Source of the DNA: an uncultured Metabacillus sp.
GTDB lineage: Bacteria; Bacillota; Bacilli; Bacillales; Bacillaceae
Reading direction: 5' to 3'
Assembly (NCBI RefSeq): GCF_947503125.1
Contig: NZ_CANNCR010000036.1
Location: 1-45,423, forward strand
DNA: 45,423 nucleotides
Of the stretch, positions 1,284 through 35,655 are shown in pieces. A program made the position numbers and the translations under genes. The notes under the pieces are model-generated. The model searched no databases. It was given only the letters and a program-made list of their open reading frames with translations, and had not been told where the DNA came from. Within the stretch, counting starts at the first letter, position 1. Every line of letters starts with the position of its first letter.

Positions 1284-1329
1284 CCTTAGTAATTTCACAA
1301 AATTTAATGATTATTATGAACGTTTCGTT

Positions 1330-1434
1330 CTTATCAAGAGCAGGTGGAGGGACTAGCCCTATGAAGCCCGGCAACCGACTTAAGATGGATTTAAGCACGG
1401 TGCTAATTCTTGCAGCATTATGCTGATAGATAAG
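1330..1434 (+). promoter_or_regulatory. SAM-I (S-box) riboswitch
   Basis: Recognised from the S-box core: AGAGCAGGTGGAGGGACT, then ATGAAGCCCGGCAACC, then the GGTGCTAATTC block. P1 is formed by CTTATC (1330-1335) and GATAAG (1429-1434). It is followed by a strong terminator hairpin, so SAM binding should stop transcription before mtnW. This is the expected control for a methionine salvage operon. Confidence 0.96.
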
Positions 1435-1460
1435 GAGATATGCTTGTTATTCATGCTTGT

Positions 1461-4823: not shown

Positions 4824-6521
4824 TTAGAGACCAAGCTTTTTATTTACTTCACGTTTTCTATTTGTCAGAGCTGTAAATGCAGCATCTAACTCCTTATATT
4901 TATCTGTTTCTGGCGTAAGCAGGCTTAATTCACCAAGAACAGCAGATATTTTGGTATTTATACGCAATAATTCCTCTTCCAATTGCTGTTTGTTTGGGCT
5001 GGCTTTTTGCTGCTGTTTTTTCAATTCGTATTGCTCGAGATTCATTTCTACTCGCTTGATTTTTTGCTCTTCAATAACGAGAAGTTTATCACAGAGCTTA
5101 TTCATAAAATAATAATCATGTGAAACAATGAGGAGTGTTCCGGTAAACTCACTTAATGTTTCTTCTAATTGCTCACGGCTGGCTAAATCTAAATGATTGG
5201 TTGGTTCATCTAATATCAACACGTCATATTCGCTCATTAACATATTGGTCAGTTTAATCCGAGTGCGTTCACCTAAGCTGAGTGTGCCAATTTGTTGCGA
5301 GATTTTATCTGCCTTCATCCCCATATTTGCAAGGATGGTTCTCGCTTGAAACAGCTTATCCTTTGCAGTAATTTGCAATGCTTCAATCCCTGTTTGAGAC
5401 AGAGCCATGTCAGCAACATCTTGGCTTAAGTAAGCGATTTTTAAGGAAGGACTTTTTATTAATTCACCAGACGTTAATGTCTCTTTTTCCAAAAGCATGT
5501 TTAGGAAAGTCGTTTTTCCAGATCCGTTTGGTCCAACGATTCCAATTCGCTCGCTATGATTTACATAAAAATGGCTGTCTTTAAAAAGAAACCTGTCTCC
5601 GAACATTTTAGTAAGATGTTTGGCTTCAACAATTCTCTTTCCTCGTTTTCTATTCGTTTCAAATTGAAAGCGAACCTTTTTCTCTTCTTGAGGCATTTCA
5701 ATTTTATTTTTTTCAAGCTCTTTATTCAATCTCTTCATTTTTGATTTAATTGCTTTATCAATCTTCTTTGCCTTTACGCCATGATATTCTTTAAAGCCTT
5801 CTTGATCTCGCATGGTTCGATGCGCTTTTCCAGACCATTGTTGTAGCTGAGTGATCTGGCTTTCCACATTTGCTTTATATTTTTGTTGAACTTCAAATTG
5901 ATGTAATTGGTCTTCGTAACGTTTTTTCTTTTCCTTATGGTAAGCAGAATAATTACCATTATATTTCGTTAATTTTCCATGGTCTAAGTCAAATATTTTG
6001 GTAACTGTTTTATCCAAGAAAAAACGATCATGTGAAATGATGATGACAGTACCGCGGAAATTTTCAAGCTGGCTAATTAACCAATGGACTCCTTGAAAAT
6101 CAAGATGATTGGTTGGTTCGTCTAAAATGAGAATATCAGGATTTGACGACCAGATTTGCGCTAAGGCAATTTTTAGTTTTTCACCGCCGCTTAAATGATG
6201 AAAACGTTCCTGCTCCCAAGTTTGTATTTTAGTTAATCCTAATTCACTTGCACTTTCAAGAAATTCAGCGGATAAATAGTTGAAATCATTTACAGAATAA
6301 TCAACTGATTGCAGCAGGTATCCTATCCGTAAATCATTGTTTCTTTTTATGTTTCCCTCATCAGGTGCTAAGCTTCCATACAGTATATTTGCCAAGGTTG
6401 TTTTTCCAGCTCCATTAGATCCAACAAGGCCGATTCGCTCACCTTTATAAAGATCAAATGAAAGATCGTTTAATACGATTTTTTCACCAAAAACCTTTTT
6501 TAGATTTCTCACTTGTAACAT
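4824..6521 (-). CDS. ABC-F ATPase, antibiotic-resistance (VmlR/Vga-like) type
   Basis: A soluble protein of 565 residues with two ABC domains and no membrane segments. Walker A motifs are GSNGAGKTT (about residue 36) and GPNGSGKTT (about 330). Signatures are LSGGEKLK and LSLGERTR, and both Walker B sites end in LDEPTNHLD. The linker between the domains is long and basic (RYEDQ...KRLNKELEK), like the ribosome-probing arm of ABC-F proteins. A coiled C-terminal tail follows. Members of this group displace ribosome-targeting drugs such as lincosamides, streptogramin A and pleuromutilins. Housekeeping ABC-F translation factors are the alternative. The attenuator-like leader favours an inducible resistance role, but which drug, if any, cannot be told from sequence. 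Confidence 0.85.
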   Translation of the reverse strand: MLQVRNLKKVFGEKIVLNDLSFDLYKGERIGLVGSNGAGKTTLANILYGSLAPDEGNIKRNNDLRIGYLLQSVDYSVNDFNYLSAEFLESASELGLTKIQTWEQERFHHLSGGEKLKIALAQIWSSNPDILILDEPTNHLDFQGVHWLISQLENFRGTVIIISHDRFFLDKTVTKIFDLDHGKLTKYNGNYSAYHKEKKKRYEDQLHQFEVQQKYKANVESQITQLQQWSGKAHRTMRDQEGFKEYHGVKAKKIDKAIKSKMKRLNKELEKNKIEMPQEEKKVRFQFETNRKRGKRIVEAKHLTKMFGDRFLFKDSHFYVNHSERIGIVGPNGSGKTTFLNMLLEKETLTSGELIKSPSLKIAYLSQDVADMALSQTGIEALQITAKDKLFQARTILANMGMKADKISQQIGTLSLGERTRIKLTNMLMSEYDVLILDEPTNHLDLASREQLEETLSEFTGTLLIVSHDYYFMNKLCDKLLVIEEQKIKRVEMNLEQYELKKQQQKASPNKQQLEEELLRINTKISAVLGELSLLTPETDKYKELDAAFTALTNRKREVNKKLGL

Positions 6522-6527
6522 AAATAT

Positions 6528-6556
6528 AAAAAAACCTCCCTATGAGCCTAGAGAGA
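6528..6556 (-). terminator. Leader terminator overlapping the ABC-F ribosome binding site
   Basis: On the minus strand TCTCTCTA (6549-6556) pairs with TAGGGAGG (6535-6542) around a 6-nt loop, followed directly by seven Ts (6528-6534). The 3' arm contains the GGGAGG ribosome binding site, 13 nt before the ATG. The same hairpin could therefore stop transcription and hide the start site. Confidence 0.7.
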
Positions 6557-6629
6557 TTTGACATGCCAAAATATACATAATGATATAAACAAAAAGTGAC
6601 CAACTATTTATCAATTTTTGCTGTTTCAT
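6540..6629 (-). CDS. Possible 29-residue leader peptide of the ABC-F gene
   Basis: An ATG-initiated minus-strand reading frame of 29 codons beginning MKQQKLINSW and ending ISLGS. Its TAG stop abuts the GGGAGG site of the ABC-F gene, and its last codons cover the arms of both leader hairpins. Drug-stalled ribosomes on such leader ORFs control several resistance ABC-F genes. No good ribosome binding site precedes this ATG, so the reading frame may be fortuitous. Confidence 0.35.
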   Translation of the reverse strand: MKQQKLINSWSLFVYIIMYILACQISLGS

Positions 6630-6670
6630 GTATATGTTGAAGAATGGCAGACTAATCCAATTTCTCTAGG
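6547..6670 (-). promoter_or_regulatory. Candidate antiterminator pairing in the ABC-F leader
   Basis: On the minus strand CCTAGAGAAATT (6659-6670) can pair with AATCTCTCTAGG (6547-6558) at 11 of 12 positions. This uses the same bases as the 5' arm of the terminator hairpin (6549-6556), so the two folds exclude each other. Confidence 0.6.
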
Positions 6671-6768
6671 TTTCGTTATATTTCAAATCATTGAATATAA
6701 TGGCCTAAGAAAAAAGATTAGAACTTCATTGCTTCAACATTCACCCTTTCGATCATTCATATAAAAAT

Positions 6769-6797
6769 AGTATATGAAGAAATAAACAAAAATGCAA
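6769..6797 (-). promoter_or_regulatory. Promoter of the ABC-F leader
   Basis: On the minus strand TTGCAT (6792-6797), a 17-nt spacer and TATACT (6769-6774). It gives a leader of roughly 240 nt before the ABC-F start codon. Confidence 0.65.
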
Positions 6798-35217: not shown

Positions 35218-35655
35218 CATCATGTAATTGAAACTGACAAATATTTGATTCGGCAATCCCATCTTTCGTAAACCTATGTAAAATTTGTACATTTTAATGT
35301 GAAGTTTCTTTAGCTCAAGATATAGACAATAGAACATTGACGCATAAACGATATAAGCCCTACCTCTCTTATATCAATACGGCTCCTAGGCCGCGCCAAA
35401 GTAAAGAAGCGTCATGATGTGTTGACCATTCATCCAAGAAGCGCGCTACTTTTTTAATACCCATTTTTCAGATGACAAAACCTTTAGCATAAAAAATATA
35501 CAGTTTGTAAGATCTAGTAAAGCTGACAAAACAGAATACGAATGTCAGCTTGATATTACGAAATGGTTGTTGTTTGGGAGATTTAAGAAGATTAGATTGA
35601 AAGTGAGGGAATAAGGTTTAAACACAAAGTTTAAGTTTAACATGATCTTTGTTTT
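35218..35655. other. Gene-free stretch with inverted repeats
   Basis: No ORF with a ribosome binding site was seen. There are three inverted repeats without T runs. GATATAAG/CTTATATC is near 35350-35375. CGGC/GCCG is near 35382. The perfect 9-bp AAGCTGACA/TGTCAGCTT spans 35520-35551. They may be remnants of a mobile or repeat element. Confidence 0.4.

Follow-up and report, generated by a model that had tools for sequence, protein, structure and literature searches.

The window (the whole 45,423-nt stretch of DNA analysed, contig NZ_CANNCR010000036.1 of an uncultured Metabacillus sp.) carries on its minus strand a gene for an ABC-F ribosome-protection protein, and the leader in front of that gene raises a question in two parts: is the gene switched on by a drug-stalled ribosome and, if so, which reading frame does that ribosome read? 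The first-pass annotation answered with a 29-codon frame that ends at the gene's Shine-Dalgarno (SD) site; our analysis leads to another frame and to a three-way RNA switch, the parts of which are collected in Table 1.

Table 1. Features of the leader and its gene in the window (the last row gives positions within loci L210 and L211)
Feature	Coordinates	Strand	Remark
ABC-F ribosome-protection gene, VmlR2-like	4824-6521	minus	NCBIfam and solved-protein comparison
-35-like TTGCAT	6792-6797	minus	17 nt before the -10; TTG-CA in 14 of 17 aligned genus leaders
-10-like TATACT	6769-6774	minus	These 14 leaders all read CATATA(A/C)T
SD-like GAAAGGGTG of the uORF	6742-6750	minus	GAAAGG-type, in alignment A1 (37 leaders) the uORF ATG follows after about 14-17 nt
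Overlapping ATG TTG AAG CAA TGA (MLKQ, stop)	6726-6740	minus	Its final ATGA overlaps the uORF start; may be an accessory ORF
Regulatory uORF ATG AAG TTC TAA (Met-Lys-Phe-stop, MKF)	6718-6729	minus	Near the leader 5' end
Region 1, uORF stop region, anti-antiterminator 5' arm	6704-6721	minus	Fold and arm-swap test
Region 2, ACCTAGAGAAATTGGATTAG	6652-6671	minus	Pairs with region 1 or region 3
Hairpin, then TTGTTT (6592-6587)	6584-6625	minus	Candidate NusG pause hairpin, compare vmlR SL-2
29-codon ORF of the first-pass annotation	6540-6629	minus	Judged a chance reading frame
Region 3, AAATCTCTCTAGG	6547-6559	minus	Terminator 5' arm and antiterminator 3' arm
Region 4, TAGGGAGG and seven Ts	6528-6542	minus	Terminator 3' arm, which is the gene's SD (6540-6535)
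RF02452-type leaders	L210 1317-1534; L211 1317-1534, 2306-2517		After cfr (decayed); before lsa(B) (intact)

The gene product scores 490 bits against NCBIfam NF000355 (ribo_prot_ABC_F, cutoff 380). The nearest solved protein is PDB entry 8buu (671 bits), with 6ha8, which we take to be VmlR from Bacillus subtilis, second at 416 bits; both entries carry the label ExpZ. The first of them is VmlR2 (PMC10201436), and by protein comparison the gene is assigned to the VmlR2 group of the ARE ABC-F proteins, for which resistance to lincosamides, pleuromutilins and streptogramin A would be expected. The same genome holds, on a different contig, a second ABC-F gene that is 52% identical and has its own leader of this class, scoring 62.9 bits. 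The start of the window gene (6528-6519) is unusual: where most orthologs have ATG directly past the U-run, the window and L025 read ATA and L026 reads ATT. A further ATG follows two codons downstream in the window; in L026, the open stretch ahead of the match contains no ATG, GTG, TTG, CTG or ATA. These three genes possibly use rare start codons. Elsewhere in the window, Rfam matches a SAM riboswitch (1328-1436, plus strand, 81 bits) and BsrC (35338-35421, plus strand, 47 bits against a cutoff of 38).

Most of the elements that the first-pass annotation saw in the leader are there, and relatives of the genus keep them. A promoter had been placed upstream of the gene; the TTGCAT/TATACT pair, at a distance of about 250 nt, is shared by 14 of the 17 genus leaders, the window included, with differing hexamers in L034 and L035 and an alignment that does not reach that far in L023. 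Its position would put the transcript start near 6765. The terminator that was said to share its bases with an antiterminator is present as a hairpin at 6559-6532, with seven Ts and a folding energy of -11.5 kcal/mol, and at least seven Ts stand directly before the start position in 15 of the 16 relatives. GGGAGG is indeed buried in its 3' arm and is retained in 14 of these 16, the exceptions being GGGGGG in L033 and AGAGAGG in the terminator of L023, a leader with a second, separate hairpin ahead of the gene start. Two layouts are in fact found within the one genus, the fused terminator and SD of the window versus a separate SD-hiding hairpin in L023, L040 and L002. The reported antiterminator pairing of 11 of 12 bases joins 6670-6659 to 6559-6547, arms more than 100 nt apart; it amounts to 7 to 10 of 12 in relatives, counted in the 13 of 16 whose arms were placed correctly by script (in L020-L022 the script misplaced them, and region 2 there reads like that of the window), and is weak, at 7 to 8 of 12, in L029, L032, L033 and L035. 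The leader fold beats all 200 shuffles (z -3.9). Chance alone would give a simple terminator scan about 1.7 such sites in 3 kb, so that the evidence lies in the conservation.

Conservation within the leader peaks elsewhere, near its 5' end, in a block made up of GAAAGG, a spacer of about 14-17 nt and then ATG, two codons and TAA. This short upstream reading frame (uORF), together with its pairing to the antiterminator arm, was absent from the first-pass account. Its ATG occurs in 37 of 37 aligned leaders and its stop in 36 of 37, all of them leaders located via the protein: 17 genus orthologs including the window, 4 paralogs, 13 family relatives and L010-L012, with L009-L012 proving useful among the 11 relatives that a contig search gave. 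The second and third codons differ between leaders (MKF, MIY, MDN, MWN, MWI, MWL, MKQ, MIQ and MKL). A uORF of two to three codons is likewise found in 80 of 81 diverse leaders, although the profile that found most of them itself includes the uORF block; two reverse-strand matches in alignment A3 are not counted among these 81. A set of 82 loci had been picked for spread among the matches listed. The distance from SD to ATG is long in the window, and similarly long in vmlR-type leaders; for the B. subtilis vmlR uORF, the SD has been proved by mutation (PMC9226507). That uORF is MIN, with variants MDN, MDK and MRK (PMC9226507), and the published consensus of the VmlR2 uORF is MK[L/Q] (PMC10201436); MKQ and MKL both occur among the relatives of the window, and the uORF variants found here agree, as sequences, with those published for VmlR2 and vmlR. 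The sensing frame is most probably this three-codon MKF near the 5' end rather than the 29-codon ORF.

The arrangement of the arms is what would allow so short a frame to control the gene. Region 3 pairs with either region 2 or region 4, giving a trp-like scheme of 1:2, 2:3 and 3:4 helices, and the unbound leader RNA folds as 1:2 with 3:4. We compared the stability of each helix built from cognate arms with that of arms swapped between leaders. Cognate arms were better in all three cases: -19.3 versus -14.5 kcal/mol for 1:2, -13.4 versus -10.9 for 2:3 and -15.1 versus -10.4 for 3:4. The cognate mean was reached in 0 of 2000 permutations, also when permuting inside terminator types, kinship being ignored throughout. 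This test used 78 of the 81 leaders, three having been dropped for want of a uORF, a GGAT arm or a terminator pick; poor terminator picks (e.g., L034, L127, L128 and L166) were kept in the 81-leader analysis. Terminator arms fall into a CCTCTCTAGG-like type (window), a TAATCCTTCC-like type (vmlR type) and a CCTATCCAGA-like type (Vat and MFS type), and region 2 shifts in step with them. The covariation of the stems that the first-pass annotation had proposed looking for shows as co-change of the arms in the swap test, with kinship ignored, but not as a consensus: RNAalifold returned no consensus pair on either A1 (37 leaders) or A3 (diverse leaders), a result that speaks against the scheme. RNAalifold folds one structure per alignment, though, and the failure may arise because the helices are mutually exclusive and the alignments gappy. 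With no RNAalifold pairs to use, the leader profile R1 was built from sequence only, on the 37 leaders.

Partition-function tests, in which a ribosome on the uORF was modelled by masking the bases up to its edge, give the same switch. In window RNA that ends with region 3, the antiterminator has a probability of 0.000 in the absence of a ribosome; this rises to 0.989 once codon 1 occupies the P site and to 0.999 for codon 2 or 3. Of 76 leaders (the 78 of the arm-swap set minus 2 with a weak terminator pick), 1 has five or more expected 2:3 pairs when no ribosome is modelled, as against 71 with a footprint on codon 1; if no more than the stretch up to the uORF ATG is taken away, 28 of 76 get there. 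The other five of the 76 stay below that number under masking, among them L149 and L163 with a value of zero. When the entire window leader is folded at equilibrium, the terminator's probability is 0.97, 0.53 or 0.16 with the ribosome on codon 1, 2 or 3. The terminator is thus still the favored structure at equilibrium when codon 1 is occupied, and the switch has to be kinetic, set by the order of co-transcriptional folding. RNA polymerase pausing has been shown for the vmlR leader (PMC9226507), and the window fold has a hairpin at 6625-6584 with a TTGTTT that fits the TTNTTT motif of NusG-type pausing; by analogy with vmlR (PMC9226507), it is a candidate for that role.

Sequence parts, conservation, co-change of arms and modelled switching are thus all observed for this leader, and it is highly probable that it acts as a ribosome-controlled attenuator of the vmlR type. 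The sequence of events would be as follows. Transcription would start near 6765. Without drug, ribosomes would finish the MKF frame at once, region 1 would pair with region 2, and region 3 would be free for region 4, such that RNA polymerase would stop at the U-run before the ABC-F start codon. A lincosamide, pleuromutilin or streptogramin A, acting at the peptidyl-transferase center at or just after initiation, would hold the ribosome on the uORF, where it would cover region 1 and break the anti-antiterminator; region 2 would then pair with region 3 and exclude the terminator, and region 4 with its GGGAGG would be freed, turning on both transcription and translation of the ABC-F gene. For the window leader we infer the drug, the stalling, the termination and the induction, its drug sensing being suggested by homology and modelling.

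Which frame would hold the ribosome is the point at which this reading departs from the first-pass annotation, for which the sensor was the 29-codon frame, its last codons making up the terminator arm, and a ribosome stalled in the leader would block that arm or release the antiterminator. The frame does exist: it is uninterrupted, spans region 3 and closes at the GGGAGG site, and an open frame of some kind, 28-30 codons long, runs through the terminator arm in 5 of 16 relatives, though from other starts and with other peptides. The proposed conservation among relatives fails, in that an ATG aligned to its start occurs in none of the 16 (the block is poorly conserved) and in 2 of 16 the frame is interrupted by a stop before the gene; a sense ORF as long or longer turns up in 505 of 1000 shuffled leaders; no SD-like stretch was found ahead of it in the window sequence; and the conserved parts of the leader are accounted for by the MKF uORF. 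With an unconserved start, differing peptides, no SD and a length expected by chance, the 29-codon ORF was rejected, and we consider it very improbable as the sensor. The more general proposal, that a drug-stalled ribosome chooses between a mutually exclusive terminator and antiterminator, survives as the best explanation, with a different ORF most probably acting and with the ribosome over region 1 rather than the terminator arm. A second contender for the sensor is the overlapping MLKQ frame, or its TTG-start form MKQ, in which case MKF would be read via termination-reinitiation at the ATGA. Its distance to the SD is more usual than that of MKF, 13 of the 17 genus leaders, the window among them, carry it as MLKQ, MLIQ or MLRQ with a terminal ATGA over the uORF start, and many vmlR-type leaders also hold an overlapping frame (MMGGR and a stop, and similar). 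However, a 1-nt deletion breaks it in L030, L029 and L032 have no MLKQ-type start and L035 lacks it; a frame of this type is impossible in the MW-type leaders, which read ATGTGG; and the vmlR toeprint is reported at the ATG of the tripeptide (PMC9226507). We regard MLKQ as a weak rival, unlikely to be the sensor.

Two further alternatives would do away with drug sensing or with action in cis. One is a plain constitutive intrinsic terminator, or an RNA-stability element, and it is true that the terminator is stable by itself. A plain terminator would leave the conserved uORF, the three co-changing helices, the homology to vmlR and the resistance genes behind most leaders without explanation, and we think that there is very little chance of its being the whole story. 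The other alternative comes from the Rfam family RF02452 (ncr1575), which is typed "Gene; sRNA": taken at its word, the label would make this a trans-acting small RNA. Against this, in 16 of 17 genus orthologs including the window (L023 being the exception) the leader immediately precedes its gene and is in line with it, the U-run falling at the gene start, and an ABC-F gene is present at 94 of 112 leader loci; a trans-acting role strikes us as even less credible than a plain terminator.

If the leader is a sensor, what else does it serve? Within the order, 195 of 397 genomes, from 69 of 136 genera, have an R1 match, as do 51 of 398 genomes of a class draw that overlaps the order draw. We examined 112 R1 loci: the 29 best, 40 weaker ones picked for spread among the matches listed, 23 (L129-L154, with 3 of 26 left out as repeats of earlier places) and 20 from the class search. 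An ABC-F gene was counted as present, in 94 loci, when tblastn gave a match at any point of the retrieved sequence. The best subfamily model for the ABC-F protein is Vga in L095, L096, L103, L107 and L113 and Lsa in L181 and L203, always below the subfamily cutoff, and L181 is truncated by the end of its locus. Other genes are also found behind the leader: the lincosamide nucleotidyltransferase Lnu(G) in 1 of the 112 loci (607 bits, cutoff 525), the streptogramin acetyltransferase Vat in 3 (325, 351 and 338 bits, cutoff 300), a short-chain dehydrogenase/reductase (SDR) in 2 (398 and 392 bits, cutoff 366) and, in 7, one recurrent kind of MFS protein of the generic family 2A0121, below cutoff. 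The SDR loci, L092 and L094, match the PRK12859 model and come from two genomes of one genus; the recurrent MFS protein (L153, L156, L160, L162, L165, L167 and L171) has no specific NCBIfam name and is a candidate drug exporter. In L174 there is a Tet-like MFS protein, below all cutoffs, and in L105 a DHA2 efflux MFS protein (309 bits, cutoff 230) that is nearest to Lmr(B) yet below the Lmr(B) cutoff. The fused terminator of L105, an MKQ leader, runs into a stub reading MLLKKKKKLL and a stop, with the MFS gene further on, and the ABC-F gene looks to have been replaced behind its leader. Decay is seen as well. In L172 a Vat-like piece is broken, and its leader also lacks the uORF stop; in L068 the gene behind the leader is gone (uORF at 1521 of the reversed locus), and in L116 a decayed stretch follows the leader and then another gene, both of these orphan leaders keeping uORF and arm with ABC-F lost or decayed. 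Homologous leaders, then, precede VmlR, VmlR2, Vga-like and Lsa-like ABC-F genes and genes for Lnu(G), Vat, MFS and SDR proteins. We found no report of this leader before lnu, vat or the MFS genes in the open-access literature searched, and the breadth of the leader, including its place before enzymes and transporters, is the part that we have not seen reported there.

The leader is also carried on plasmids. It precedes lnu(G) on an Enterococcus faecalis plasmid (L205, 139 bits) and on an Exiguobacterium plasmid (L212, 140 bits), and among 159 plasmid records with any match to the stretch carrying the L146 leader, 41 have at least 80% of it. In Staphylococcus aureus pGMI17-006, a copy with an intact uORF, MIY and a stop, precedes lsa(B) (110 bits), and another copy follows cfr, as it does in Escherichia coli pSCEC2, between IS256 copies (111 bits). 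In the copies after cfr no short uORF was found in the expected place, and they look decayed. The L210 and L211 leaders were found by RF02452 and not by R1 on the right strand. No leader match was obtained for plasmid vga(A) (L208) or for the lnu(G) of an E. coli plasmid (L206), and no R1 match for vat on a Priestia plasmid (L209), which lies after a virginiamycin B lyase gene. The staphylococcal plasmid vga(C) (L207) has a weak leader-like match at 465-569 (R1 4.6 bits, E 0.33), which keeps ATG AAA TAC TAA TCC TAT and GGAT.

For the window, the attenuator offers an explanation of how the drug itself could switch on a silent chromosomal resistance gene, and it corrects the sensing reading frame. 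The wider leader set matters more than the window alone. We lean, with moderate confidence, towards one transferable, homologous attenuator, a sensor for drugs of the peptidyl-transferase center, placed before unrelated resistance genes across Bacilli and also on plasmids. If that is true, the 2A0121-like MFS and SDR genes are candidate unrecognised determinants, and the Rfam ncr1575 "sRNA" is this leader. Were one leader family to serve chemically different mechanisms against the same drugs, the leader could be used to find unnamed inducible resistance genes, and inducibility at sub-inhibitory drug levels could be predicted for all of its members, those on Enterococcus and Staphylococcus plasmids included.

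How does the window leader relate to those already described? R1 also detects leaders of the form GAAGGGATGATGGGTGGNCG-ATGATTAACTAATCTTATTT, the vmlR type with uORF MIN, and the one MIN-type leader tested, L100, precedes a gene nearest to 6ha8 (802 bits versus 412 for 8buu). The consensus of RF02452 contains AUGAUUAACUAA, the vmlR uORF published in PMC9226507. RF02452 scores 153.5 bits on the L100 leader and 139.6 bits on the Lnu(G) leader, both far above its cutoff, and on these grounds we regard RF02452 as the vmlR leader family. Against the window leader, a permissive search matched RF02452 over its full length (1-212 of 212) at 49.3 bits (E about 1e-6); this is below the gathering score of 60, the Rfam search at gathering threshold returned nothing at the window leader, and it is therefore not filed as a member. 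On 14 other loci, the permissive search reached E 0.05 in 6, none over the cutoff. Among 299 genomes of the class, 44 have a match to RF02452, 30 above the cutoff; of the 30 loci from that search, 29 have an ABC-F gene and 1 is the Lnu(G) locus again (a tblastn count that does not depend on strand; uORF readings at L189, L190, L191 and L193 are disregarded), and among 14 named control genomes the match is in B. subtilis only. Rfam types the family "Gene; sRNA", yet the matches examined are mostly cis leaders of resistance genes. From these sequence matches, the window leader is regarded as a diverged homologue of the RF02452/vmlR leader family.

The vmlR attenuator has been proved experimentally in B. 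subtilis (Takada 2022, PMC9226507), and the window leader resembles it. Both have a 3-codon uORF near the 5' end, an anti-antiterminator, an antiterminator and an intrinsic terminator, and a second layer that hides the SD of the gene, and the same drug class would be expected for the window. In the window we find the short uORF with its SD near the leader 5' end and the overlapping anti-antiterminator, antiterminator and terminator, though without an RNAalifold consensus; the SD is hidden in the read-through RNA by another layout, the terminator arm being the SD. A separate SD hairpin after the terminator, which the window lacks and L023 has, was not treated as defining. In vmlR, the terminator (SL-3) and the SD hairpin (SL-4) are separate, whereas in the window one hairpin does both; the U-run of the window comes directly before the gene start, and the terminator arms and uORF sequence differ (PMC9226507). 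Neobacillus vireti VmlR2 (Obana 2023, PMC10201436) is the nearest solved protein, with the uORF consensus MK[L/Q] versus MKF in the window; a dissection of its leader structure was not found in the accessible part of PMC10201436. The other known systems are likened by description. On short uORFs of the ABC-F genes are5sc and tiaA, lincosamide, streptogramin A and pleuromutilin drugs stall the ribosome at the start codon (PMC12421871), but these belong to another ABC-F class and have other uORFs. In Clostridioides difficile cplR, the uORF is a tripeptide, MR[I/M], and the protein is ARE1, in which it differs from the window; as in the window, the terminator stem hides the SD of the gene and ends at the start codon, combining transcription and translation attenuation (PMC10201436). 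The window leader is a further homologue of a known attenuator, with terminator and SD hairpin fused as in cplR.
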